From a virus, in IMG/VR virus record IMGVR_UViG_3300045284_000139, positions 1 to 34,630 of that record: 34,630 bases of DNA; one strand, written 5' to 3'. The position numbers and the translations under genes are program-made. Under the pieces are notes generated by a model, which saw nothing but the letters and a program-made list of their open reading frames with translations, had not been told where the DNA came from and did not search any database. Positions 1,611 through 33,943 of this stretch are shown piece by piece. Numbering within the stretch: position 1 is the first letter of the stretch; each line of letters starts with the position of its first letter.

Positions 1611-3883
1611 GGCGCGGTCTCCCTGATGACGATGCTGGAGGCCATGACGCCTCCCAGAAGGCGCGCGCCTGCCGCGCCGTTGAAGGTCGTGGTGCCTGCC
1701 GCGCTGCCACCCGCACGCACGCGAAACGTCGTGGCGCTGGTCGTGCCGCTGGTCATGACGTGCGTAAACTTGAAGTTTGTGTTGGTCCCCGCAGCTTGTG
1801 CAAGCTGCGGCATTGCCGCGAGCGCGTTTGCCGTCGCATCCTGAAACAAAGCGACCGTCATCGTCGTGTTGACGGAGTTTGCCCCGCCCCACACGACCTC
1901 GATGACCAGCTTCGACGTGGCGCTCTTTGGCGTGATCGCCAGCGTCATGAACTCGGTGCCCTCTGTGATCTGCGGGATCGTGTCATCGAGGGGAATGACC
2001 GTCGTGCCGGTCGCCACCGCGCCGGTCTCGACGCTCACCATCTGGATCTGCGCGCCAGGGGCCGTGACGGTGCCGGTGAAGGTTCCAGCACCTGCCCAAT
2101 TGAGCAGGCCGTTGGCCTCGACGTTGCCGCGCCAGGTGGCAGCTGTGTAAAACGACAGCGTTTGCAGGTTGCCGTTGAACTGGACGCCGGCCCGCACCGT
2201 TCCGGTGTCGGTCGATGCGTTGAACGGCGTATAGGCATAAGTGCCGTCCGCCAGCCTGAAATTACTCCCCGCCTGCACGCTGCCGCTGAACGTCGCCGCC
2301 GTGCCGGTGATTGCGCCCGTGAACGTCGTCGCGCCCAACGTCTTGTTGCTGAGCGTCTGCGTCGCCGTCTCACCGACCAGGCGGTCCCAGCCGGTCGTGC
2401 CGTTGTTGTTGTAGTACGGCAGGCCGGGGCTGCTGCCGTTCATGTAGAGCGAGCCGTAGGACCCGAACGTGCTGAAGGTCGGGTTGGAGAGGCCGGCAAA
2501 CAGCCCGAGGTTGCCGCCCGCGCCGTTGCCCAAAGTCAGCGCGAAATAGTCGGCACCGTTGGTCACCAGACCGCTGGTCGAGAGCGCCCGCAGCCAGCCG
2601 CTGAACTGCGTGTCGCCTGCCCGGTCGACCTGGAACAGCGGGTTAATGCCGGTGGCGCCGCCCATGACGCGCAGCGCCGATCCGCCGCCGCCGGTCGGGT
2701 CGGTCAGCACGACATCGAAGTAATCCTGGCTCGCCGAGGTCGTGGTGCCGCGGACGATCAGGGCCTTGGTGCCGGCGGTCGCCGACCTGAACTCGGCCAG
2801 CGCACCGGGCGTGCTGGTGCCGACGCCGAGCCGCTTGTTGGTACTATCCCAACTGAAGTCGGCCAGCACGCCGGTCAGCACGTTGGAGGCGCTGCCATAG
2901 CCCACCGCGCCGGCCGCCAGGGTCGCTGCACCGCCGGTCGCGCCGGCAACTGCCGTCTGCACGAAGGCCGTCGTGGCGATGCTGGTATCGTTGTCGCCTG
3001 CGGTCGGTGTCGGCGCCGTAGGGTTGCCCGTCAGTGCGACGTTGGCCTTGATCGTCGGACTGGGATAGCTGCCGGCGAGATCGCCGCTTGCCGCGCCATT
3101 GGGCGGCAAGGTCGTCGGGATCGAGCTGGTGAGCGCGTAATTCGACAACGGGCCGCCGACCAGCGTCGGGTTGGGATAGGTCCCGGTCAGCGCGCCGCCA
3201 GCCGCGCCGGTCGGTGGCCCCGGCAGTGTCGTCGGCAGCGCCGACTGTACGAAGGCTGTGGTCGCGATCTGGGTCGTGCTGGTGGTCGACGGCGTGGCGG
3301 TCGGGGCCGTGGGTGCGCCGGTCAGGCCGACGCTCGCCTTGATGGTCGGTGATGGATAGGTGCCGGCGAGATCACCGCCCGCCGCACCGCTGGGTGCGCC
3401 GCCTGCAGGGGCCGCCCACGCCGAGACACCACCGACCGTCGTCAGCACCTGCCCGTTGGTAACGGACGGCTTGATGGTCGGGCCGGGATAGCTGCCATTC
3501 AAGTCGCCGCTTGCCGGGCCACCGGGCGGGAACGTCGAGGGCTTCCCGGTGATGGCGCTCCAGTCGACCGGCGGCAACGTCGACTGCACCGCCGCCGACA
3601 CCTGCGCCACCGTGATGCTCCGGCTCGTGCCCGACTGGTTCGCCTCGAGCTGGTCGCTGATGGTGGCACCGCCAGCCGCCGGCAAGGCCGATATTTTCAC
3701 CCCCGGCAGGGTCACGCTCGCCACGCCGCTCTCCGCGGTCAGTTGCGACGCCCCCGAGCGGCTGGGCACGCTGCCCAGCGGGTGCGGTCGCTTCACGCCG
3801 CTGGCACCACGCGCCAGGAACTGCGACACGCCCGCGTAGCCGGGGTCCAGCGGGTGCGGTTTCTTTACCCCTCGGATGCCCAT
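1607..3883 (-). CDS. Large tail-fibre-like / receptor-binding virion protein
   Basis: 758 residues, Gly/Thr/Ala-rich and low in charge. Near the N-terminus is a duplicated 'GVK(K/R)PHPL' element. From about residue 110 to 320 there are four copies of a 'G(D/A)L.G(S/T)YP.PT(I/L)' unit and two or three 'TAPT...IATTAFVQ' units, both typical of phage tail fibres. A 'TLSNKT' element follows in the middle. The C-terminal ~140 residues look like a beta-sandwich receptor-binding tip. Its place between portal and scaffold is unusual for a fibre, and a separate collar-type fibre lies at 25.1-26.1 kb. The start at 3883 shares one base with the portal stop (TAATG). It could instead be a head-decoration fibre; I am sure of the repeat architecture, less of the attachment site. 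Confidence 0.75.
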   Translation of the reverse strand: MGIRGVKKPHPLDPGYAGVSQFLARGASGVKRPHPLGSVPSRSGASQLTAESGVASVTLPGVKISALPAAGGATISDQLEANQSGTSRSITVAQVSAAVQSTLPPVDWSAITGKPSTFPPGGPASGDLNGSYPGPTIKPSVTNGQVLTTVGGVSAWAAPAGGAPSGAAGGDLAGTYPSPTIKASVGLTGAPTAPTATPSTTSTTQIATTAFVQSALPTTLPGPPTGAAGGALTGTYPNPTLVGGPLSNYALTSSIPTTLPPNGAASGDLAGSYPSPTIKANVALTGNPTAPTPTAGDNDTSIATTAFVQTAVAGATGGAATLAAGAVGYGSASNVLTGVLADFSWDSTNKRLGVGTSTPGALAEFRSATAGTKALIVRGTTTSASQDYFDVVLTDPTGGGGSALRVMGGATGINPLFQVDRAGDTQFSGWLRALSTSGLVTNGADYFALTLGNGAGGNLGLFAGLSNPTFSTFGSYGSLYMNGSSPGLPYYNNNGTTGWDRLVGETATQTLSNKTLGATTFTGAITGTAATFSGSVQAGSNFRLADGTYAYTPFNASTDTGTVRAGVQFNGNLQTLSFYTAATWRGNVEANGLLNWAGAGTFTGTVTAPGAQIQMVSVETGAVATGTTVIPLDDTIPQITEGTEFMTLAITPKSATSKLVIEVVWGGANSVNTTMTVALFQDATANALAAMPQLAQAAGTNTNFKFTHVMTSGTTSATTFRVRAGGSAAGTTTFNGAAGARLLGGVMASSIVIRETAP

Positions 3884-6249
3884 TACACAGGCCTCTGCTG
3901 GAGTTCGATGTTGCCCGGCTTCGGCTGCAGGGAAATCTTCAATGCCTCGAGCTGCGCCTCGCGCTCGATCTCCTGGCGCGACAGGTCGGCATCGAGCGCC
4001 GCCTTCTCACGCGCCAACTGCAGGTCCTGCGCCGCCTTCTCGCGGGAAAGCTGCAATTCGAGGTCGGCCGCCTCGCGGCGAAGCTGCATGTCGATGGCCG
4101 CCGCCTCGCGTTTCTGCTGCGACTCGGCCTGCATCTTCTGCTGCGCCAGCGCGTTGTCGGAAACCAGCTTCTGCTGCGCCAACTGCACGTCGGCCTGGTG
4201 CTTGGCCGCCGCCGCCGCCGCATCGGCCTGGACCTTGAGCATGGCCGGGTCCGGCTTCTGCTGGCCCTGCTGCTGCGCGGCGGCCTGCGCCACCTGCTCG
4301 GGCGGCTGGAAGAACATGCCCGGCGTCTTGAAGCCGAGCTTCTCGGCCAGCTTCTGAGACGTGTTGGCGATGTTCTCCGGGGTCACATAGGGGCCGGTCG
4401 GCCCGCCCTGCATCAAGACCAGTTTCTCCTGCGCGGCAGCGATCAACTGCAGGTGTTCGAGTTCCTGCTGCGTGTTGCCGGTGCCCAGCCCGACATTCAC
4501 CGTCAGGCTCATGTCGTCCGGCCATTTGCTCGGGTCGACCGTCTTGAACGTCTTGCCGGCCCAGTACTGCGTCGGTCCCATCGCGGCCCGCTTGAGGGCG
4601 CGATAGACCAGCCGGTAGATGCGGGCCACCGCCGTCTCGGCCAGCACGCGGGCGATCAGCTTCTGGCGCTGCGCCGCCGCGCTCATCAGCAGGTTCATGC
4701 CGCGCGCCGTCTTGTTGATGTCGTCCGCCTGCAGCCCCTGCGATTGGCGTGACGTGCCGGTGCGGTTCTCCTTGACCGTCTGGAAGTACTCGAGCGCCCC
4801 CAGCGCGTCCTGCATGATCGACGGCACCTTCTGCCAGTCGATGTGCCCGTCGCCCGGCTTGGCGCCCGCCTTGAAGCGGATCGGCGAGCCCGGCACCCAG
4901 TCGAGCAGGCTGTCGAGGATCACCGCATCCGACACCGCCGGACGGGGCCGGTTGGACATGTAGAGGTTGTCCAGCATGCCCCGCGTCAGCACCGACGAGA
5001 TCAGTTGCAGGTCCTGCGTCTGGTCGAACAGCGAGCGGCCGACCAGGCTGTGCGGCATCAGGATCGGCGTGGCCAGCGCGATCGGCGCGACGCCGTCCTC
5101 CCACTCCTCGCGCTCGATGATGCGGCCGCCGTCCCCGCCTGAGTGGGCATACACGATGCGCAGCATCTCCGAGACGCCGTCGCCGTTGGCATCAGCCCGC
5201 AGGTAGGCCACCACCAGCCACAGCGGGCGCTCGCTGTCGCCCACCGTGTCGCGCTCGTCGCGGTAGAGCGAGGAGGCGTTGGACGTGAGCTGGGCGGCCT
5301 CGCCCGTGTCGGTGCGGTCGCTCTGCAGGTCGTCGACCTCGTCCGGGTCCATGCCCATCTTGACCAGCTCGGAGGCCGTGGTGCGCCTGATGAAGCCGAG
5401 GAACGACGCCTCGTCCTGGGTGCGGGCGTCCGGCGTGAAGCGGATGTCCTGCGGCGCGATGCTCGCGGCGACCACCTTCTGCACCTTGCGGGTGATCTCG
5501 ATGGTTCCGCTGAACGTCTGCTGCGGGGCCATGGCGGGCATCCCGAACGGGATAGCCCCTGCGCCGGCCGGGCCTATGCCGTTTTGTTCCGCTCCAGGTG
5601 TCGCAACTGTCGCAACTGTCGCAGGACTCGGGGGCATGGGCGGGCCGCCGGCAGCAGCCATCGACATCGCCGCCGGGTCCATGCCGGGCATCGCCCCCGG
5701 CTCCGGTGCCGGGTCGGGCGTCAGTTCCAGCTCGATCTCGGGCGGGTCGGGCTCGTTGGCCGCCTCCGACAGCATCACGTCGATGGCGTCCTGCGGCATG
5801 CCCTGGACCGGCAGGCGCTGGATGTCCTCCTTCTCGGCCAGGTCGACGCTCATCCCGCCAAGGCGGAACATCAGCGCGTCCTTGATCAGCGAGTGCAGCA
5901 GCGTAAAGCCGTCGTTCTCGACCATGAAGCAGTGGGTGACATAATCGGTCGCCTCCTGCGCGATCGGCTCCTCGCCGGGGGCGCCGGGCACGAACTGCAC
6001 CACCTGGTCCGAGCCGGTGAAGACCTCCATCAGGCCCGGCATGACGCTCTCGATGGTGTCGGCAAACTCGGACGTGACGACCTGGGATGCGCCCTCCTGC
6101 TCGTCGCCGTAGGGATCGCGGTCGTAATAGCGCAGCGCCACCAGGCGCATGTCGGAGAGCGTGCCGGACTGGTAGTCGCGGCTGCTCTGCTCCTCCTTGC
6201 GCAGGATCGAGAGCAGGTCGTCGTCGTCGAGGGGTTCGCGGTCAGCCAT
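3883..6249 (-). CDS. Portal protein (P22-like, podovirus type)
   Basis: 788 residues. The portal is the dodecameric ring at the head vertex through which DNA enters and leaves and onto which the tail assembles. The N-terminal 'LRYYDRDPYGDEQEG.SQVV.SEFADTIESVMPGLMEVF' region is characteristic of large podovirus portals. A Pro/Gly/Met-rich insertion occupies about residues 175-245. The wing/stem region carries 'RIIEREEWEDGVAPI' and 'SLLDWVPGSPIRFKAGA'. The last ~120 residues are a Gln/Ala/Glu/Lys coiled coil matching the P22-type barrel. The start at 6249 (MADREPL) was preferred to an upstream GTG because it has GGGAG upstream and the 8-nt ATGGCTGA overlap seen elsewhere in this operon. Confidence 0.92.
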   Translation of the reverse strand: MADREPLDDDDLLSILRKEEQSSRDYQSGTLSDMRLVALRYYDRDPYGDEQEGASQVVTSEFADTIESVMPGLMEVFTGSDQVVQFVPGAPGEEPIAQEATDYVTHCFMVENDGFTLLHSLIKDALMFRLGGMSVDLAEKEDIQRLPVQGMPQDAIDVMLSEAANEPDPPEIELELTPDPAPEPGAMPGMDPAAMSMAAAGGPPMPPSPATVATVATPGAEQNGIGPAGAGAIPFGMPAMAPQQTFSGTIEITRKVQKVVAASIAPQDIRFTPDARTQDEASFLGFIRRTTASELVKMGMDPDEVDDLQSDRTDTGEAAQLTSNASSLYRDERDTVGDSERPLWLVVAYLRADANGDGVSEMLRIVYAHSGGDGGRIIEREEWEDGVAPIALATPILMPHSLVGRSLFDQTQDLQLISSVLTRGMLDNLYMSNRPRPAVSDAVILDSLLDWVPGSPIRFKAGAKPGDGHIDWQKVPSIMQDALGALEYFQTVKENRTGTSRQSQGLQADDINKTARGMNLLMSAAAQRQKLIARVLAETAVARIYRLVYRALKRAAMGPTQYWAGKTFKTVDPSKWPDDMSLTVNVGLGTGNTQQELEHLQLIAAAQEKLVLMQGGPTGPYVTPENIANTSQKLAEKLGFKTPGMFFQPPEQVAQAAAQQQGQQKPDPAMLKVQADAAAAAAKHQADVQLAQQKLVSDNALAQQKMQAESQQKREAAAIDMQLRREAADLELQLSREKAAQDLQLAREKAALDADLSRQEIEREAQLEALKISLQPKPGNIELQQRPV

Positions 6250-6502
6250 CAGCCCGCTCCCATTTGACGCCGTCACTGCTCACAACGGGGCTATAGATCG
6301 GGATCTCGTAGCCATCTTCGACAATTTCAAAGTCGGGACTGCGCCCCATGAATTCGACGCGGTCAGCCGTAAAGGCAGGGGCCGCACGCAGGATCACAAC
6401 GTGCCGCTGGATCTCTTCCAGGCGGCCCGGATAGGCGTGCATTTCCTGGCCGGAAATGAACCAGCGGCCGAGTCGGCGGTCGCGTTTGTAAGGATCAGCC
6501 AT
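6242..6502 (-). CDS. Small hypothetical protein upstream of portal
   Basis: 86 residues beginning MADPYKRDRRLGRWFISGQE, with several aromatic and charged residues and no recognised domain. The start at 6502 shares one base with the upstream stop (TGATG), and the stop lies within the portal start by an 8-nt overlap. The protein ends in Ala-Asp-Gly, like the proteins encoded by three small genes upstream. Function unknown; the tight coupling to the portal suggests a head-assembly or accessory role (inference). Confidence 0.6.
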   Translation of the reverse strand: MADPYKRDRRLGRWFISGQEMHAYPGRLEEIQRHVVILRAAPAFTADRVEFMGRSPDFEIVEDGYEIPIYSPVVSSDGVKWERADG

Positions 6503-10003: not shown

Positions 10004-10481
10004 CTTCGCCCTCGATGATCTGGCCTTCGATGAGCTGGGGTTCGCGCTGTTGCCTTGCACGTTCACGCATGTCCTCGAGGAGGCTGTTGACGTTGAGGTC
10101 TACGTTTCCGCTGTGCTCGAAGCGGTCGCGCTGGCCGAGGTACTGTTTTCCGAGCCAGACGAGCATTGTGGTGTTGCCCTCCTCGAGGGCTCGCCATTGG
10201 TGGCGGCGCAGGCTCATGCGGCCTTTTTGGAGGCCCATTTTGTGAAGTCGGAGGAACTTTCGATCGTGTGCTAGGAAGCTGGTTGAGACGTTGAGGAAGG
10301 CCGCGATTTCCTCGTGTGTGCACTGCAACATTCCAAGCTTTTCAATGGCTTCGTAGTCGATTGTCTTCCTAGGCTTGCGGGGCTTTTTGAACAGGCTGAG
10401 GGGGTCTGGGCCGTCGCCGTTGTTCTCCTTCCAGCCGCGGGTTGGGATGTTACGGGTTGGGGCGGTGGCGGGGTCGCTCAT
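9993..10481 (-). CDS. terS: Terminase small subunit (probable)
   Basis: 162 residues directly upstream of TerL. The small subunit recognises the packaging site and recruits TerL. An N-terminal Pro/Lys-rich stretch is followed by a helix-turn-helix-like segment ('IEKLGMLQCTHEEIAAFLNVSTSFL') and a C-terminal charged region with 'RMSLRRHQWRALEEGNTTMLVWLGKQYLGQ', a pattern I associate with phage small terminases. The start at 10481 (MSDPATAP) forms an ATGA overlap with the methyltransferase stop. A longer in-frame extension to 10724 is read through the methyltransferase gene and was rejected. The assignment rests on HTH, size and position. Confidence 0.8.
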   Translation of the reverse strand: MSDPATAPTRNIPTRGWKENNGDGPDPLSLFKKPRKPRKTIDYEAIEKLGMLQCTHEEIAAFLNVSTSFLAHDRKFLRLHKMGLQKGRMSLRRHQWRALEEGNTTMLVWLGKQYLGQRDRFEHSGNVDLNVNSLLEDMRERARQQREPQLIEGQIIEGEDAP

Positions 10482-11776
10482 GCTGCGGCCAGGGGAGCTG
10501 TAGCCAGCGACCGGAAGGGCTCGCCGTTGTCGCGCTGGGCGGTCTGGCCGGTGAAGTTCTGCCAGCGGGTGATGGCGACATCGACGTAGGCGGGGTTGAG
10601 TTCGATGCCGTGGCAGGCCCGGCCGGTCATCTCGGCGGCGATGATGGTTGTGCCTGAGCCTGAGAAGGGTTCGTAGACGGCCTGGCCTGGGGAACTGTTG
10701 TTCTCGATCGGGCGCTTCATGCACTCGACGGGCTTCTGGGTCGAGTGGTTGGTCTTTTCCTCGGTCTTGCCGGCGTTGCCGAAGGGATTGTTATTATTGA
10801 TCTGCCATAGCGTCGTCTGCTTACGGTCGCCGGCCCATCCGCCAGTGCTTCGCACGGCATACCAGCAAGGCTCATGCTGCCAATGGTAGTCGCCGCGTCC
10901 GAACACAAAGTGCTGCTTTGCCCAGATGATCTGGGCGCGCATTTTGAAGCCGGTGGCTTCCAGGCTGTTCTGGACCGTCGCTGAGTGCAGGCCGCCGTGC
11001 CAGACGTAGGCTACGGCGCCGGGAAAGAGCGCCCACGCCTCGCGCCAGTCGGAGCGGTCGTCGTTGTCAACCTTTCCGGTTGCCCGCCCGGAGTATTGGC
11101 CGCCGATCCTTTTGCCGATGTTGAGGTCGTATTTTTCACGCCAGCCGGCATCGTATTCGACGCCATAGGGCGGGTCGGTGACCATCAGGTGCGGGGCGAT
11201 GCCGGCGAGCGCCTTGTCGACTATTGCAGCGTCGGTGCAGTCACCGCAGACGAGGCGATGGCGGCCGAGCAGCCAGATGTCGCCGGGCTGGGAGACGGGG
11301 TTCTCGGGGGCGTCGGGGACCTCGTCGGGGTCGGTGAGGCCCTGGGTGCCGCCGGGGGCGAGGTAGCGGTCCAGCTCGTCGGCCGAGAAGCCTATCAGGT
11401 CGAGATCGAAGCCCACGTCGCTAAGGCCCTTAATCTCCCCGCTGAGCAATTCCAGGTCCCAGCCGGCATTCAGTGCGATCTGGTTGTCGGCTATCACCAG
11501 CGCCCGTTTCTGGGCTTCTGAGAGGCCCTTTAGGCGGATACAGGGGACGGAGGCGAGGCCGAGGCGCTTAGCGGCGTCGAGGCGGCCGTGGCCAGCAATA
11601 ATGTTATCGGCTTCGTCGATCAGCAGCGGATTGGTGAAGCCGAAGGCGGTGATCGAGGCGACGATCTGGGCGATCTGGGAGTCGGGATGGGTGCGCGGGT
11701 TGCGGCCGTAGGCTTTCAGCGCGTCGGGGGCGACGAGGGCGTATTCGCCGAAGGATAAGGGTTTTTGCTTTCCCAC
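10478..11776 (-). CDS. ParB-like nuclease domain / DNA methyltransferase fusion
   Basis: 432 residues. Residues ~10-100 form a ParB/Srx-like domain (NPRTH at 26-30, IIAGHGRLDAAK at 59-70, VIADNQ at 94-99). Residues ~165-420 form an amino-methyltransferase with motif IV DPPY at 201-204 and the SAM-binding FSGSGTT at 371-377. Motif IV before the SAM motif is the beta-class order of N6-adenine/N4-cytosine enzymes. Such fusions are common in phages, placed upstream of terminase. Methylation could protect phage DNA from host restriction or mark packaging DNA (inference). Start is GTG at 11776 with GGGAG about 12 nt upstream; no ATG fits. It is coupled to TerS by ATGA. The ParB-like part is not evidence for plasmid partition. 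Confidence 0.9.
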   Translation of the reverse strand: MGKQKPLSFGEYALVAPDALKAYGRNPRTHPDSQIAQIVASITAFGFTNPLLIDEADNIIAGHGRLDAAKRLGLASVPCIRLKGLSEAQKRALVIADNQIALNAGWDLELLSGEIKGLSDVGFDLDLIGFSADELDRYLAPGGTQGLTDPDEVPDAPENPVSQPGDIWLLGRHRLVCGDCTDAAIVDKALAGIAPHLMVTDPPYGVEYDAGWREKYDLNIGKRIGGQYSGRATGKVDNDDRSDWREAWALFPGAVAYVWHGGLHSATVQNSLEATGFKMRAQIIWAKQHFVFGRGDYHWQHEPCWYAVRSTGGWAGDRKQTTLWQINNNNPFGNAGKTEEKTNHSTQKPVECMKRPIENNSSPGQAVYEPFSGSGTTIIAAEMTGRACHGIELNPAYVDVAITRWQNFTGQTAQRDNGEPFRSLATAPLAAA

Positions 11777-12917: not shown

Positions 12918-13208
12918 CTAGGTCGTCCTCGGTTTGCGCTTGGGTTTGGGCGGTGGTGGCGCCTCGAGGCGGTCGAGGCGGGCTGAGAACTGGGCGACGG
13001 CGAAGGCGAGGCGCTTGACGGCGGCGCCGTCGAGGGCCGGGTCGCCGCGCATGTTGCCGAGCTTGGTTGCGACCGTGTCGACGCGCTCGTGCAGCCAGGC
13101 GACGGCGGTGTGCAGGGCGGGCAGGTCGATCTCGCCTTGGCTGGCCGTGATCGCGTCGAGGGCAGTGCGCAGGGCGGCCAGCTCGCGGACGATGGCGCGC
13201 TTTTTCAC
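12918..13208 (-). CDS. Coiled-coil-like hypothetical protein
   Basis: 96 residues, helical throughout (ELAALRTALDAITASQGE..., LHTAVAWLHERVDTVATKLGNM, LAFAVAQFSARLDRLEA), ending in a basic Pro/Lys/Arg tail. The start is GTG at 13208, overlapping the preceding stop as GTGA, matching the coupling throughout this operon. No domain recognised. The basic tail could bind nucleic acid. It belongs to the operon with the replication gene. Confidence 0.6.
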   Translation of the reverse strand: MKKRAIVRELAALRTALDAITASQGEIDLPALHTAVAWLHERVDTVATKLGNMRGDPALDGAAVKRLAFAVAQFSARLDRLEAPPPPKPKRKPRTT

Positions 13209-13402
13209 AGGTCGCCCTGCTGTGGCTCGCGCCGTTCGGTGAGCGAGTGCCATTCGTCCCAGGTGACCGGCGTGTCGTATTCGGCGGCGAGTTGCTCGAT
13301 CTGCTGCCACCACTTGCCGGCATCGTCGGGGAGCTTGCCGAAGCGCTGGGCGCGGGCGCTCGACAGCAGGCGGGCGCGGTGGAGCAATTCCTGGCGGGTC
13401 AC
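13205..13402 (-). CDS. Small hypothetical protein
   Basis: 65 residues starting at GTG 13402 (MTRQELLHRARLLSSARAQR). The middle 'AGKWWQQIEQLAAEYDTPVTWDEWHSL' is rich in Trp. GTGA overlaps join it to the replication gene upstream and the 96-aa gene downstream. Being directly downstream of a probable initiator, it could be a replication accessory (helicase loader position), but no loader motif or Walker sequence is visible. Confidence 0.55.
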   Translation of the reverse strand: MTRQELLHRARLLSSARAQRFGKLPDDAGKWWQQIEQLAAEYDTPVTWDEWHSLTERREPQQGDL

Positions 13403-13956
13403 TGAAACCGTTTCATGAACGCGGCGCGCTTTGCGGCGGTGACCTCGGCCAGGCGTTCGCGGGTGGCCCTGGCGTCCGGCGACTCGGCTTTGGGGACTCG
13501 GATGGGCTCGAGTGCGGCAGGCGCGCGGGCCGGAGCCCCCACATCCGGCGCAGGCTCGCGCGCGGCATCAGTAAGACTCTGAATTAAATCATCTGGACTC
13601 TGATCTCTGTACTCTGAGGTAGCATGTTGCTTGCAGCTTGCTAGCACGCTGCTAGCATCGGCACTTTCGATGATCCAACCCACTGAAATCAAAGGATTAA
13701 GTGCTTCTGCTAGCACGCTGCTAGCAAGGCGCAAGCGGAATGCTAGCACGTCGCTAGCACAGTCGATTATCCCCAGCTCGCTCTCACTTGCTAACAGCCA
13801 CAGCATCGGCGCCAGCGCCCGGCTGGCGAGCGGCAGGCCGTGCCAGGTCGGATCGTCGAGCAGGCTGCGGTGGAGTCGTATCCACGGCGGGCGGCGGTGC
13901 TTGTAATGCTGGAACCGTGCCCAGCCCTTGATGCGCAGTATCCTCCGCTCACTCAT
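13399..13956 (-). CDS. Probable phage replication initiator (lambda O-like in layout)
   Basis: 185 residues. The N-terminal 'IKGWARFQHYKHRRPPWIRLH' and 'SLLDDPTWHGLP...LWLLAS' region is the pattern seen at the start of many phage replisome-organiser proteins, a winged-helix-type DNA-binding domain (family knowledge). The C-terminal half is less ordered and ends in a basic helix. The gene itself contains three origin-like iterons and an AT-rich stretch, as lambda O contains its origin. The start at 13956 (MSERRILRIKG) is coupled to VRR-NUC by ATGA. Three Ala-Ser-(Ser/Asp)-Val-Leu-Ala hexapeptides come from the iterons. The biochemical role is inferred. Confidence 0.6.
   Translation of the reverse strand: MSERRILRIKGWARFQHYKHRRPPWIRLHRSLLDDPTWHGLPLASRALAPMLWLLASESELGIIDCASDVLAFRLRLASSVLAEALNPLISVGWIIESADASSVLASCKQHATSEYRDQSPDDLIQSLTDAAREPAPDVGAPARAPAALEPIRVPKAESPDARATRERLAEVTAAKRAAFMKRFQ
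13576..13617. repeat. AT-rich stretch with three ACTCTGA repeats (possible unwinding element)
   Basis: ACTCTGA occurs at 13576-13582, 13597-13603 and 13611-13617 around the run GAATTAAATCATC. This is the most AT-rich part of the gene and lies about 20 bp from the nearest 19-bp iteron. In iteron origins such a segment is where the duplex first opens. Proposed by analogy only. Confidence 0.4.
13639..13759. repeat. Three 19-bp iterons: candidate replication origin
   Basis: TGCTAGCACGCTGCTAGCA occurs exactly at 13639-13657 and 13708-13726; 13741-13759 differs only in the centre (TGCTAGCACGTCGCTAGCA). Each carries two inverted TGCTAGCA/GCTAGCA cores. Degenerate half-sites flank them (TTGCTTGCAG near 13627, TTGCTAACAG near 13789). 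Spacing is 69 and 33 bp, both multiples of three. They sit inside the probable initiator gene next to an AT-rich segment (13576-13617), the lambda-type origin layout. Initiator binding is inference. Confidence 0.6.
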
Positions 13957-14369
13957 GCTGCCCTCCTCGGCCACAGGCTGCCGTTGCCGGCGACGGTGGC
14001 GTGCAGCGGGATGCCGTTGGTCCTGAGAGCGCGCTCGACATCGTCGAGGCTCCAGCACAACTCGTAGGCCGCATCAGCCAGCGCGAACTCGACAGCCACG
14101 GCGACCTGGGCGGCGCTCGGCCTCCCCTTGCCGGCCTTCAGCTCGAGCCCAATGACAACGGTGCGCCCCTGGGGCGCCGGGTGCAGAACGAGCAGGTCCG
14201 GCACGCCTTTGCGCCCTCCCCTCGCCTTGAGCAGCCCCGCCGCCGCAGGCGTCATCCGGCCGGCGCCATGGTCGATCGCGAACCAGATCGTCGGCGGGCG
14301 CAGGGCCAGCCGCAGGAATTGCGCCGCGGCAAGGTGCAGAGCCTGCTCGGGGCGCGCCCGGCGCCTCAC
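13953..14369 (-). CDS. VRR-NUC domain nuclease
   Basis: 138 residues. The core 'RKGVPDLLVLHPAPQG' ... 'VIGLELKAGKGRPSAAQ' is the PD-(D/E)XK signature of VRR-NUC proteins: Asp in GVPDLL, Glu and Lys in LELKAG, then the Ser-x-x-Gln element. Stand-alone VRR-NUC proteins are common in phage replication modules and cleave branched or structured DNA in related systems. The start is GTG at 14369, overlapping the upstream stop (GTGA); the longer in-frame reading to 14411 is unnecessary. It is coupled to the replication initiator by ATGA, consistent with processing replication or recombination intermediates, perhaps with ERF and NinB encoded rightward. Confidence 0.85.
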   Translation of the reverse strand: MRRRARPEQALHLAAAQFLRLALRPPTIWFAIDHGAGRMTPAAAGLLKARGGRKGVPDLLVLHPAPQGRTVVIGLELKAGKGRPSAAQVAVAVEFALADAAYELCWSLDDVERALRTNGIPLHATVAGNGSLWPRRAA

Positions 14370-14737
14370 CGCTCGTCCTTGAGGTCGCTCCTCGGCGTCC
14401 CCGACACCCACGCCTCGAACCGCCGCTCGGCCTCCGCCGACAGCGTTCCCCGCGCCTTGCAGTCGAAGATCGAGCCCCCGCCCCGCGCCACCACCGCGGC
14501 GTCCAGCTCGTACAACACGAACTTGATCGCGGCGTCAGTCGACTGGCCGCTGTCAAACAGCGGCTGGGCAGCCCCGAGCGGATCCAGCCCGCCGGTTGGC
14601 CCCGGCAGGGTGGCGGGGTTTTCGGGTGATCGCCCTAGCCGCGCCGATCTCAGGGCCAGGGCCGCCGCCGCCCGGCCGTCCTCGCCCATGGCCCGCAGCC
14701 GTCGCACCTCGGCAAGAAGGGCGGCAGTCGGGGTCAT
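14366..14737 (-). CDS. Hypothetical protein
   Basis: 123 residues. The N-terminal helix is (TAALLAEVRRLRAMGEDGRAAA), the middle is Pro/Gly-rich, and the C-terminal part reads 'AAIKFVLYELDAAVVARGGGSIFDC' and 'AERRFEAWVSG'. No known domain. The start at 14737 is in an ATGA overlap and the stop in a GTGA overlap with VRR-NUC. Function unknown; part of the leftward early operon. Confidence 0.6.
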   Translation of the reverse strand: MTPTAALLAEVRRLRAMGEDGRAAAALALRSARLGRSPENPATLPGPTGGLDPLGAAQPLFDSGQSTDAAIKFVLYELDAAVVARGGGSIFDCKARGTLSAEAERRFEAWVSGTPRSDLKDER

Positions 14738-15357: not shown

Positions 15358-15603
15358 TCACCCGCCCCACGGGAAGTCAGGGCGCAGCATCCGGCGCGTG
15401 ACCTTCCCCTTCGTGACGGCTTCAATAATCGGGCAGATTTCGGCAGGTATTTTGGCGCCCGGCCTTGCCCTCAAGCGGCGCAGCATCTCTGAGATATAGC
15501 TCTGGTGCGGCCGACCGAGAGCCTCGGCCAGCGCTCGCTGCCCCTTCACTTCCACGATGGCGTCTTCCAACGCCTCGAGCGGCGTTCTGCGCGGTTTTGT
15601 CAT
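15358..15603 (-). CDS. Cro-like / YdaS-type HTH regulator
   Basis: 81 residues. The N-terminal helix-turn-helix 'LEDAIVEVKGQRALAEALGRPHQSYISEMLRR' is followed by 'IPAEICPIIEAVTKGKVTRRMLRPDFPW', the tail typical of YdaS/Cro-type phage regulators (where '(V)TR..LRPD' closes the domain). It is first gene of the leftward early operon, divergent from the repressor, hence the lytic (Cro) role. ATG at 15603 coincides with the transcription start predicted from its promoter, so the mRNA may be leaderless. Binding to the shared operator is expected but inferred. Confidence 0.85.
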   Translation of the reverse strand: MTKPRRTPLEALEDAIVEVKGQRALAEALGRPHQSYISEMLRRLRARPGAKIPAEICPIIEAVTKGKVTRRMLRPDFPWGG

Positions 15604-15683: not shown

Positions 15684-16082
15684 GTGACCACACTAGGCGA
15701 ACGGGTGAAGGAACTTCGCGAAAACAAGGGCTGGAGCCAAGAACAGCTCGCGGAAAACGTGAGCCGGCGCGGATACAAGATCGGCCAGAGCGCGATCGGG
15801 AATATCGAGGCCGAGCGCGTCAAGAACCCCAAGTGCATCGTCCAGCTAGCCGCCGCCCTCGATATCTCGCCTGTCTGGCTGCAGACCGGGAAGGGCCAGA
15901 AAGAGGCGACCGAACACCGCCCGCCGACAAGGCAAGTATTCATCAGTCATGCAACAAACGACCAGGACAAGGTCGACTTCCTGATGAACAAGATTTACGA
16001 CGCCGACAAAATGCCCATGGGTTCGCCCGAGGAAAAGGCCGTCGTCGTCCTGTTCAGGCACCTCAAAAAGCAACAGCAATAG
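15684..16082 (+). CDS. CI-like phage repressor (XRE HTH, no S24 peptidase)
   Basis: 132 residues. Residues 1-63 are an XRE/HTH_3 domain ('LGERVKELRENKGWSQEQLAENV', 'GQSAIGNIEAERVKNP', 'LAAALDISPVWLQTG'). The remaining ~65 residues are a short linker and helical tail, far shorter than a LexA/S24 autocleavage domain, with no Ser-Lys protease pattern. It is divergent from the Cro-like gene across an 80-nt operator region, so it is likely the maintenance repressor. Induction would then need something other than RecA-stimulated self-cleavage, for example an antirepressor. Start is GTG at 15684 with AAGGAGG 13 nt upstream. Confidence 0.85.
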   Translation: MTTLGERVKELRENKGWSQEQLAENVSRRGYKIGQSAIGNIEAERVKNPKCIVQLAAALDISPVWLQTGKGQKEATEHRPPTRQVFISHATNDQDKVDFLMNKIYDADKMPMGSPEEKAVVVLFRHLKKQQQ

Positions 16083-17926: not shown

Positions 17927-17979
17927 CGTGGCTTCCCGTCATCCTGCTCCTGATCCTTTTTCTCGTGGCGGATGAATGA
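17923..17979 (+). CDS. Micro-ORF: 18-aa hydrophobic peptide
   Basis: ATG at 17923 to TGA at 17977-17979 encodes MTWLPVILLLILFLVADE, a short transmembrane-like helix. The ATG overlaps the previous stop (ATGA) and the stop overlaps the next start (ATGA), so ribosomes could pass directly through it. It may act as a membrane micro-protein or only bridge translation between its neighbours. Support is positional; expression is unproven. Confidence 0.4.
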   Translation: MTWLPVILLLILFLVADE

Positions 17980-18272
17980 CCCGCGCCGCGATTGCCGGGC
18001 TTTTGGGGGCGGTGGGGATGGTGATGCTGGGAGCCGCCATCCCCACCTGCGCCCAGACCTACCCGCCGGCCGGCTGGCAGCTCCAGCAGCGCATCGACGG
18101 CGAGTGGCAGGTCCTGCGCACGCAGCGCGGCAACTACGCCACGGTCCAGAGCGATACGGCATGCGCCCTCGATCTCGCGTCCGCCGCCAAGGTCATGCCG
18201 TCCGGCACCGTCCTGGCCTGCCGCAAAGCCATCCAGCCCATACCCATCCAGCGCAACGCACGAGGAAACTGA
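17976..18272 (+). CDS. Small secreted/periplasmic protein
   Basis: 98 residues with an N-terminal signal peptide (basic start, hydrophobic AAIAGLLGAVGMVMLGAA, then CAQTYP), possibly cleaved after Ala or at the Cys as a lipoprotein. The mature part reads 'GWQLQQRIDGEWQVLRTQRGNYATVQSDTACALDLASAAKVMPSGTVLACRK', with two Cys likely to pair. ATGA overlap with the micro-ORF; ERF starts 2 nt after its stop. Function unknown. Confidence 0.65.
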   Translation: MTRAAIAGLLGAVGMVMLGAAIPTCAQTYPPAGWQLQQRIDGEWQVLRTQRGNYATVQSDTACALDLASAAKVMPSGTVLACRKAIQPIPIQRNARGN

Positions 18273-18274
18273 AA

Positions 18275-19135
18275 ATGTCCGACAACATCCCCGAGAGCGA
18301 CGCCGCGTCCGATTATGACTTGCCAACATTCGGCCGCGCCTCAAGCGAGCGGTCGGCCGGGATCGAAAAGCTGGCCGGCGCGCTGGCCAAGGCGCAGGGC
18401 GCCATGAGCAACGCAGAGAAGACGGGAGAAAACCCGGCCTTCAAGAGAGCCGGCAAGGTCTCGACATACGCCACCCTCGCCGCCGTTCTCGATGCCGTGC
18501 GCAAGCCGTTGTCCGACAATGGACTATCGGTTTCACAGTGGCCCCGCACCAACGGACAGGGCGTCGAGATCGAGACTGTCCTGAAACACGAGAGCGGCCA
18601 GTACATGCGCGACACGCTCTGGCTGCCGTGCCCGCAGATGACGGTGCACACCGTTGGCTCAACGATCACCTACTTGAGGCGATATACCTTGATGGCGATC
18701 GTCGGCGTGGCCCCCGAGGACGACGACGGCAATGCGGCAGCCGAGGCCCACAAGCCCGGCGTGCCCGGCTCTGCCTCGGGCGGCGGCGCCTTCCGTCCCG
18801 CCGGCCCGCGCCGCATGTCGAGCAACGGCCAGCGCCTGGCCAACGACGACGCGCACCTGATCGACACCGAACGCGACAAGGGCACCACCGGCAAGCCGCC
18901 GACACAAGACGAGCGCGCCCAGAAGATCGCCGCCAAGGCGAAGGCCTGGGTCGACAATGCTGCGGCCACGCTGCGGCTCTCCGGGCAGTCGGTCGACTCG
19001 CTATCGCGCTTCCTGGCCGACCACGAGGAACAAATCACGTTTCTCAATGACCACGCGCCGACCGAGTTCGAGCGGTTCTTCGAGGTCTACAACGATGTGG
19101 CTGACAAGGCCCGCGCAATGGTGGGGGGAGCGTGA
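18275..19135 (+). CDS. erf: ERF-family single-strand annealing protein
   Basis: 286 residues. ERF proteins form rings on single-stranded DNA and anneal complementary strands in phage recombination. Residues ~25-155 carry the family pattern: 'LAGALAKAQGAMSNAEK...NPAFK', 'VSTYATLAAVLDAVRKPLSDNGLSVSQWP', 'TVLKHESGQYMRDTLWLPC' and 'GSTITYLRRYTLMAIVGVAPEDDDGNAA'. The C-terminal half is a Gly/Pro linker and a helical domain (~215-286). Start at ATG 18275 with GAGGAA upstream. It is upstream of NinB in the same operon, forming a recombination module. Confidence 0.92.
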   Translation: MSDNIPESDAASDYDLPTFGRASSERSAGIEKLAGALAKAQGAMSNAEKTGENPAFKRAGKVSTYATLAAVLDAVRKPLSDNGLSVSQWPRTNGQGVEIETVLKHESGQYMRDTLWLPCPQMTVHTVGSTITYLRRYTLMAIVGVAPEDDDGNAAAEAHKPGVPGSASGGGAFRPAGPRRMSSNGQRLANDDAHLIDTERDKGTTGKPPTQDERAQKIAAKAKAWVDNAAATLRLSGQSVDSLSRFLADHEEQITFLNDHAPTEFERFFEVYNDVADKARAMVGGA

Positions 19136-20822: not shown

Positions 20823-21062
20823 GATGGCAAAAGTCGGCAGAACTGTTTTGCCGTATTATGCCGCGCATCAACGCAGCGTACCCTCAAGCCCTAGCTGCGC
20901 CTCTAGACCATTACAAAGTATCTATTATACGATAATTTTTCTGGCCTCTTTAAGGCAACGCCTTGATTCTGCGTATAGTCGCCAGACTATCCCCGTTATG
21001 CACCCTGTCTGAGTTCCGCCCCCGTTCCATCAATCCATAGCGTGTCAGGCATTTTCCGTAAC
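20823..21062. other. Intergenic spacer of lower G+C
   Basis: About 240 nt without a convincing gene. It holds a GGCAAAA-N13-TTTTGCC inverted repeat right after the operon (20826-20852), and an AT-rich core with a possible promoter TTACAA-N16-TAATTT (near 20911-20938). Both are weak. The lower G+C suggests it arrived together with the HNH gene that follows. Confidence 0.4.
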
Positions 21063-21569
21063 ATGGACCAGCAACCATCCAAATTTGACCCACGCAGCGG
21101 CAGGCCCCGTAAGAGCCTGGCTCAAGTCTTAGCCCGATATAAGGTCCATCAGTCGGACTGCTGGGAGTGGACCGGCGCCCGCAATCAGCATGGCTATGGC
21201 ATGGTCGGCCTGATGCTGGACGGCAAAATCAACACCATGCCGGCTCACCGGCTACAATGGATGCGGCTCAACGGCAAACCAGCCGAGGGCATGGACATCT
21301 GCCACCGTTGCGACAACCGAGGGTGCATCAACCCGGCTCATCTATTTGAAGGAACGCCCCGCGACAATATCAGGGACATGATTAGCAAGGGTCGGGACGT
21401 TCGACTGCGGGGGGAAGACCATTCCCACACCACCCTGACAACGGCCCAAGTTATCGCCATCAGGGCCGATCCACGTAAGGGTCCAGCGATAGCCGCCGAT
21501 TACGGGGTCAGTACCACCACGATCCGTAATATCAAACGTGGGGCGACGTGGGGGCATGTCGGGAAATAA
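21063..21569 (+). CDS. HNH endonuclease A (homing-type)
   Basis: 168 residues from ATG 21063 (GTG 21042 is possible; neither has a clear ribosome site). The HNH core is: 'CWEWTGARNQHGYGMV', 'AHRLQWMRLNG', 'DICHRCDNRGCINPAHLFEGT', then 'NIRDMISKGR'. The C-terminal ~50 residues form a DNA-binding tail, 'LTTAQVIAIRADPRKGPAIAADYGVSTTTIRNIKRGATW'. This is the usual build of free-standing phage HNH_3 homing nucleases. It shares layout with two other HNH genes in the window and stands alone between operons. Confidence 0.9.
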   Translation: MDQQPSKFDPRSGRPRKSLAQVLARYKVHQSDCWEWTGARNQHGYGMVGLMLDGKINTMPAHRLQWMRLNGKPAEGMDICHRCDNRGCINPAHLFEGTPRDNIRDMISKGRDVRLRGEDHSHTTLTTAQVIAIRADPRKGPAIAADYGVSTTTIRNIKRGATWGHVGK

Positions 21570-24099: not shown

Positions 24100-24645
24100 C
24101 TATTTGTCTTCCAGATGTTTCCACGCCACGCGACGACGAATTCTCGACACCGTGGTTATGTTGACGCCGTAATCGGTGCTGATTTCGCGCAGCAGGCGGC
24201 GATCTTGCTGAATAGCCAGGGCATCCGCATCTGTGAGCTTGGCTGCGTTGTTGTCCGCTCCTCGTCTGATGGTGGCGCGGAACGCTGTGGAATTCCGAAT
24301 TGACTGGCCCAGACGAGAACCGCGAGCTTGCCGTCCTTTTGCGACCTTATCCGCGACGTTGTGGTCGTTCGTTCCGGTGAAGAGATGGTCTGGATTGACG
24401 CAGGCGCGGACATCACAACGATGGAGAACCTGAAGGCCGGACGGGATAGGTCCTTTAGCAACGGTCCACGCGAGACGATGACCGAGTATCATCTTGCCGC
24501 GTCGGTTAACGTGAGCGTAGCCGCTGTTGTTGATGTGACCGAGCCATAGATGGCAGCCTGAATTGGGTTCCGGTATGGCGTAGAAAGCGATTATCTCCGC
24601 TTCTGTCGCGTCATAAGGCGGTATATTTCGGGTTGCTTTTGTCAT
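24100..24645 (-). CDS. HNH endonuclease B (homing-type) in the lysis cassette
   Basis: 181 residues. HNH core: 'GCHLWLGHINNSGYAHV', 'GHRLAWTVAKGPIPSGLQVLHRCD', 'ACVNPDHLFTGTNDHNVADKVAKGR'; the C-terminal part is an HTH-like tail, 'LTDADALAIQQDRRLLREISTDYGVNITTVSRIRRRVAW'. It is embedded in frame-like coupling: ATGA with the membrane gene upstream and 2 nt before the M15 gene, so it may be co-expressed with lysis genes. It belongs to the same type as HNH A and C. Confidence 0.88.
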   Translation of the reverse strand: MTKATRNIPPYDATEAEIIAFYAIPEPNSGCHLWLGHINNSGYAHVNRRGKMILGHRLAWTVAKGPIPSGLQVLHRCDVRACVNPDHLFTGTNDHNVADKVAKGRQARGSRLGQSIRNSTAFRATIRRGADNNAAKLTDADALAIQQDRRLLREISTDYGVNITTVSRIRRRVAWKHLEDK

Positions 24646-33344: not shown

Positions 33345-33430
33345 CCCGTTTGGCCTTTTAGTTCGTGGTTATTGAAGGCATAAAAGGCGAGCCGGGCCGC
33401 GCTCGCAACGCGGACACCGGCTCTAACCAC
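33341..33430 (-). other. Possible tiny gene or gene remnant (…FYAFNNHELKG)
   Basis: The frame that ends in an ATGA overlap with the GNAT-like start encodes 'ARLAFYAFNNHELKGQTG'. From a GTG at 33430 it would be 29 residues, with no good ribosome site. The coupling style matches every real junction nearby, and the peptide has a normal composition. It may be the tail of a gene displaced or cut by the HNH C insertion upstream. Confidence 0.35.
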
Positions 33431-33451
33431 CTTCGCGAAAGGACCGCGAAC

Positions 33452-33943
33452 ATGGCTAACGCCACCCCTAAACGCTTTCAGTGCCCGGATCACTGGTCGC
33501 TGGGCAAGCGACTGACCTACTACACCGACCGAAGCGGCGGCCCCGACGCTTGCTGGCCGTGGACCGGCCATAAAACTCCCAGAGGGTACGGCGGCCTTCA
33601 ATGGAAGGGCAAACCGTGGCGAGCGCATCGCTTGGCGTGGATCGAAGCCAACGGCCCGATCCCGCCGGATAAGCCGCATATCCTGCACGACTGCGACCAC
33701 CCGCCGTGCTGCAACCCGGCTCATCTGTTCTGCGACACGCATGCCGCCAACATGGCCGATAAGATGAGAAAGGGTCGCGCGCCCCATGGGGAAACCAACG
33801 TCATCGCCAAACTGACCGAGGCGGACGTGCGGGCTATACGGGCGGCGGCGGGGACGCATCGCGACATCGCCAAGCGTTTCGGCATTGACCATACGCACGT
33901 CGGAGACATCAAACGCAGAGAAAGATGGCGTCATTTGCTCTAG
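33452..33943 (+). CDS. HNH endonuclease C (homing-type), antisense to late operon
   Basis: 163 residues from ATG 33452 with AAAGGA upstream. HNH core: 'CWPWTGHKTPRGYGGL', 'AHRLAWIEANGPIPPDKPHILHDCD', 'CCNPAHLFCDTHAANMADKMRKGR'; C-terminal HTH-like tail 'LTEADVRAIRAAAGTHRDIAKRFGIDHTHVGDIKRRERW'. It is inserted on the opposite strand between late genes; its stop overlaps the stop of the 84-aa gene by 4 nt. Of the same build as HNH A and B, implying repeated colonisation by one nuclease lineage. Confidence 0.9.
   Translation: MANATPKRFQCPDHWSLGKRLTYYTDRSGGPDACWPWTGHKTPRGYGGLQWKGKPWRAHRLAWIEANGPIPPDKPHILHDCDHPPCCNPAHLFCDTHAANMADKMRKGRAPHGETNVIAKLTEADVRAIRAAAGTHRDIAKRFGIDHTHVGDIKRRERWRHLL

Follow-up and report, generated by a model that had tools for sequence, protein, structure and literature searches.

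The placement of a replication origin within the gene that encodes its initiator is a known plan. In phage lambda (O/ori-lambda) and in the Stx phages, iterons and an AT-rich region lie in the middle of the initiator gene O (PMC7466680), and that gene stands upstream of a helicase or loader gene. The lambda-type iterons are imperfect palindromes of about 19 bp, four of them in lambda and six in the Stx phages (PMC7466680). Among the RepA_N plasmids, the origin of pSK41 is central in rep, whose product has a winged-helix N-terminal domain related in fold to DnaD; in the chimeric initiator of pPR9 the N-terminal domain and the origin have been replaced together as a module of about 500 bp while the C-terminal domain was kept (PMC5703833). 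RepA_N systems belong mostly to Gram-positive plasmids, an exception being the RepA of the PLE satellite, whose origin lies in a non-coding region (PMC7145576). The gp38/oriL pair of phage SPP1 is a further comparable system, distinguished by a second origin, oriR (PMC6316719).

Here we analyze 34,630 nucleotides of viral DNA (IMG/VR record IMGVR_UViG_3300045284_000139, positions 1 to 34,630), referred to below as the window. We consider it very probable that the window contains an origin of theta-type replication embedded in the gene for the initiator that acts on it. A sequence-only reading of the same DNA had compared the locus with lambda O/ori, differing in the iteron, and as an analogy this holds: the window shares with lambda and the Stx phages repeated sites in the initiator coding sequence, DNA-level selection on those sites and an adjacent AT-rich stretch. 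It does not amount to evidence of homology, as neither the window protein (E 0.1) nor 101 relatives (E 0.01) match the Phage_rep_O profile (PF04492), and the repeat unit is 11 bp rather than about 19 bp. Further unlike the lambda and Stx origins, the window gene has a site that is an 8-bp palindrome repeated at an 11-bp pitch, and one of its arrays is written inside the codons of the folded DNA-binding domain.

The initiator gene and its relatives

The gene occupies positions 13399..13956 on the minus strand and encodes 185 amino acids, arranged as a winged-helix DNA-binding domain (approximately residues 1-100), a linker and a C-terminal helix (residues 160-184). Its earlier designation as a probable initiator is supported by a profile match to phrog_26426, annotated as "replication protein" (E 2.8e-23), a profile that all 102 aligned family members also match, and by the annotations of relatives in named phages: "replication protein O" in Cr-LKS3, "DnaD-like helicase loader" in phiPLPE, and "replication protein" in PBR31. 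Some family members additionally match PHROGs named "replication initiation O-like".

An AlphaFold2 model of the protein is confident over residues 1-100, which are winged-helix-like. The best structural neighbours of the model (Z 6.6-7.6) include the Gram-positive-type primosomal DnaB 5wtn, the RepA-iteron complex 5kbj and the RepA structure 4pta; the two RepA proteins, which are the likeness to the RepA_N systems, align over 80 residues with Z of 7.2 and 6.6, values below 8 at which unrelated folds score too and chance may suffice. The modelled kinship with primosomal DnaB and the RepA_N initiators is thus suggestive only. RepA_N origins differ in having semi-palindromic repeats around a poly-A tract, and the RepA_N N-terminal domain (PF06970) gave no profile match in the window protein or its relatives. 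A Foldseek search with the model returned no significant match, a search of PDB sequences with the family profile returned nothing useful, and no plasmid homologues of the DNA-binding domain were found.

Two arrays of 11-bp units

The sequence-only reading had reported two exact and one near-exact 19-bp repeats within the coding sequence, and these are present: TGCTAGCACGCTGCTAGCA occurs exactly at 13639-13657 and 13708-13726, and with two mismatches at 13741-13759, whereas shuffles of the window yield a mean of 0.01 matches. A fourth copy, again with two mismatches, lies on the opposite strand at 13628-13646. The unit itself had been misjudged, since on the coding (minus) strand the repeat is one of 11 bp, GCTAGC followed by five variable bases, and there are nine such units (five and four) rather than three copies. 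The units are strictly phased within two arrays, and 58 bp, measured from start to start, separate the last unit of one array from the first of the other. Array 1 (13704..13758, minus strand) comprises five units GCTAGCNNNNN, the third of which reads GCTTGC; it encodes residues 67-84, within the winged-helix domain. Array 2 (13613..13656, minus strand) comprises four units with the cores GCTAGC, GCTAGC, GCAAGC and GCTACC, and encodes residues 101-115, directly past the domain.

The octamer TGCTAGCA, an 8-bp palindrome around the core GCTAGC, has five exact copies in the window, all five of them in the initiator gene. The repeats had also been said to use unusual codons, and the count agrees: CTA makes up 2.1% of leucine codons and GCT 7.1% of alanine codons in the other genes of the window, while in the initiator gene the repeats account for every CTA codon (three) and for all but one of the five GCT codons.

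The AT-rich stretch

Adjoining and overlapping array 2 is a stretch (13574..13640) of 43% G+C, against 66% for the window, which is the proposed unwinding element. Its lowest 60-mer falls in the lowest 0.23% of the window in G+C, with lower ones at 20.9 kb and 16.1 kb. As noted previously, it contains three ACTCTGA repeats on the plus strand (13576..13582, 13597..13603 and 13611..13617), which read TCAGAGT on the coding strand; the third overlaps the end of array 2. Their spacings of 21 and 14 bp correspond to a phase of 7 bp. In most homologues the array is followed by purine-rich AGAGAC repeats, and the window gene has instead this 7-bp-phased CAGAG variant. The AGAGAC repeats were expected to occur across all three frames, but the homologues have them almost exclusively in the Glu-Thr frame, which means that the protein may account for some of the excess; their codon choice is still above that of synonymous shuffles. 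GC skew was set aside as evidence for an origin: the cumulative skew does peak at 13-14 kb, but the genes change direction near 15 kb as well, which makes the signal non-discriminating.

Selection on the DNA across homologues

When IMG/VR was scanned with the protein-blind DNA pattern TGCTAGCANNNTGCTAGCA, matches came from at least 120 viral contigs, and among the matches listed the pattern lay inside a homologue of the initiator gene in 90 of the 120. A second set of homologues was collected by protein search, using only the first 36 amino acids as query to avoid circularity. The octamer counts within the gene and in its flanks (up to 1.2 kb) were 65 versus 1 in the 80 viral loci of this set, and 55 versus 2 in its 39 loci from bacterial genomes.

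Codons were then shuffled synonymously within each gene, which keeps both the protein and the codon usage. The five octamers of the window gene compare with a mean of 0.15 and a maximum of 2 in 5000 such shuffles, and the 106 octamers of 60 dereplicated homologues with a mean of 4.8 and a maximum of 13 in 300 shuffles. The DNA-level selection inferred earlier is therefore borne out: shuffling preserves the protein and loses the repeats. Arrays of four units at 11-bp spacing are found in 40 of 60 and 28 of 30 genes, while spacings of 8-10 and 12-15 bp give such arrays in 0-2 genes. The octamer is used in both of the frames that avoid its internal TAG stop, being read as AS or as LA. Homologues that keep the encoded hexapeptide while the bases of the repeat drift, named earlier as a refuting pattern, were not seen as a rule. 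One diverged homologue (L109; LLHYKDRAPTF) contains ten TGCTAGCA octamers in a single gene, at spacings that include 10, 11, 13 and 44 bp.

A second core and residue 18

In a sister group of homologues, FQHF replaces FQHY and the sites are TGATATCA, with the core GATATC at the same 11-bp pitch and the same location in the gene; there, 40 sites compare with 4.3 in synonymous-codon shuffles, none of which reached the observed count. The core is inherited together with the DNA-binding domain: tyrosine at residue 18 accompanies GCTAGC in 47 of 47 genes and phenylalanine accompanies GATATC in 28 of 28, so that all 75 scorable genes agree, the other 15 of the 90 homologues (about a sixth) being unscored for having too few sites of either core or equally many of both. 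For the tree, core labels were assigned from exact core counts, a GATATC array scoring 4/6 per unit against GCTAGC. The correlation is a lead rather than proof, because the tree needs only two changes per trait. One Y18 protein (L186) is nested in the F18 clade, and its array (approximately 2760-2800) is of the GCTAGC type with one GATATC unit; this mixed array is possibly an intermediate of a change in specificity. A de novo scan for other palindromic cores at 11-bp spacing gave weak candidates only, in genes with neither core.

Exchange of the DNA-binding cassette

Comparison with a phage contig, L001, reveals that the DNA-binding part of the gene has been exchanged as a unit. The two are similar at 12925-13573 (91%) and 13952-14370 (80%) but not between, so that a minus-strand cassette (13574..13951) comprising the DNA-binding domain, the iterons and the AT-rich stretch has no similarity to the otherwise homologous L001. 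The conserved C-terminal tail (13402..13573, minus strand; about 57 codons) is 93% identical to that of L001 and is the proposed recruiter of the replication machinery. In place of the cassette, L001 has a DUF1376-like domain (a weak match) and five 11-bp units ATCCAGTNGCN at its positions 3846-3900, again within the initiator gene, which suggests that 11-bp origin arrays exist in another initiator family also. When repeats of the L001 type were scanned for, they turned up in a single further contig, where the protein context differs.

Between genes of the GCTAGC and GATATC types, the C-termini are 60-79% identical in some cases and the DNA-binding domains 47-60% identical over their aligned parts. 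Judged from these sequence comparisons, the joint replacement of domain and repeats is as predicted if a domain and its cognate site move together, and pPR9 offers a precedent for cassette exchange of this kind (PMC5703833).

Gene neighborhood and distribution

As with the O genes of lambda and the Stx phages, family members are found upstream of helicase or loader genes: the gene after the initiator encodes a DnaC-like loader in phiPLPE and a DnaB helicase in Cr-LKS3. Among 20 downstream genes of other homologues, picked by length and position and so not a random sample, nine encode helicases (DnaB, Toprim-DnaB or superfamily 2) and three encode IstB/DnaC-like proteins. No helicase or loader was recognized among the window proteins scanned, for which reason use of the host helicase is assumed.

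Elsewhere in the window, a minus-strand gene at 10478-11776, near the terminase gene, encodes a ParB-N domain fused to an N6/N4 DNA methyltransferase (phrog_498, E 2e-140). The product of 3883-6276 (minus strand) is an SU10-type portal protein (PF23899, E 2e-171) and is indicative of a podovirus-like virion. A YdaS/Cro-like protein (15358-15603, minus strand) and an HTH repressor (15684-16082, plus strand) form a divergent regulator pair, which suggests that the phage is temperate and is controlled from a region near 15.6 kb. Also on the plus strand, 17972-19135 encodes an ERF-type single-strand annealing protein (domain at approximately residues 126-261), the start of which is probably overcalled. 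Genes resembling HNH homing endonucleases lie at 21042-21569 (by Pfam match) and at 24100-24645 and 33365-33943 (by eye).

A search of the phage collection for close DNA relatives of the window returned none. The initiator family occurs in at most 11 of 50,697 phage records from isolates, yet in at least 565 stretches of metagenomic viruses, and this imbalance may be why it was missed. The genomes and hosts over which the 11-bp code is spread range from Pseudomonadota to Planctomycetota, Gemmatimonadota, Nitrospirota and Cyanobacteria.

Alternative explanations

Could the repeats be operators, through which the initiator represses or times its own transcription, or a partition or segregation site, with replication starting elsewhere? 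The sites do lie within the initiator gene and adjoin no other gene, and the same phage encodes the ParB-domain/methyltransferase protein (10478-11776). We nevertheless regard this explanation as unlikely: the arrays are located 200-340 bp inside the coding sequence rather than at a promoter, have an AT-rich or AGAG-repeat stretch as their partner, and accompany initiator genes in many phages. Binding of the initiator within its own gene could also serve autoregulation, instead of initiation or besides it.

Two other readings seem to us highly improbable. That the repeats arise only as a side effect of ASxVLA, a conserved peptide motif required by the protein, is suggested by the ASSVLA that two of them encode and by the recurrence of the motif in relatives. 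We rejected it on the strength of the synonymous-codon shuffles, which keep the protein and lose the repeats, and of the use of the octamer in two frames; moreover, the octamer occurs at several positions in the gene and at a pitch not divisible by three, the corresponding location in GATATC-type relatives has DIxxIS with an unchanged pitch, and elsewhere in the window gene ASRALA is encoded without the octamer, so that a related peptide does not force the DNA. Equally far-fetched is the notion that the sites serve as targets for a DNA methyltransferase or restriction enzyme, or act as hot spots of recombination through which modules are exchanged. GCTAGC and GATATC are indeed palindromic six-base sites of the restriction type, the window has a methyltransferase gene and the exchange of modules takes place beside the sites; against this, the octamer is nearly restricted to the initiator gene among many loci, the core switches along with the DNA-binding domain, and L001 shares neither the domain nor the site, so the sites have not supplied homology for a crossover.

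Proposed mechanism and implications

For the preferred reading, a replication origin within the initiator gene, we propose the following scheme, in which binding, melting, helicase recruitment and actual use as an origin are drawn by analogy from lambda O (PMC7466680), the RepA_N initiators and SPP1 gp38 (PMC6316719). The winged-helix N-terminal domain would bind the 11-bp-phased palindromic units TGCTAGCA, with their core GCTAGC, in both arrays; with a pitch close to one turn of the helix, bound copies would be aligned, several together, on one face of the DNA. The nucleoprotein complex on the two arrays would then strain and open the AT-rich DNA beside them, where the ACTCTGA repeats lie (most relatives have AGAGAC repeats instead). 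The helicase would be brought in by the C-terminal tail of the initiator, being supplied by the neighboring helicase or loader gene in many relatives and presumably by the host in the window phage.

We are about evenly divided on a broader proposal: that these loci constitute an undescribed and large class of phage replicons, spread over many bacterial phyla, whose origins share a single 11-bp code with GCTAGC and GATATC as its two readings, the switch of core being paired with a small change in the initiator that is marked by tyrosine or phenylalanine at residue 18, and that some members encode the helices that read the iterons in codons which those same iterons overlap. If this is true, a single piece of DNA has to accommodate the evolution of both the protein and its binding site. 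In the open-access literature searched, we found no description of this 11-bp palindromic code, of its two readings, of its wide spread or of iterons within the codons of the folded domain, and among the papers listed for the octamer its uses were all unrelated.

In hundreds of environmental phages whose genes are now labelled simply as hypothetical or as replication protein, the likely origin and its initiator are marked by a signature of GCTAGC or GATATC every 11 bp, followed by AGAG repeats. Because its DNA-binding domain varies jointly with the sites and is transferred with them in a single cassette, the family is also a natural setting in which swaps of a few residues and bases could test the specificity code, and it offers an example of a binding site written into protein-coding sequence in two frames.
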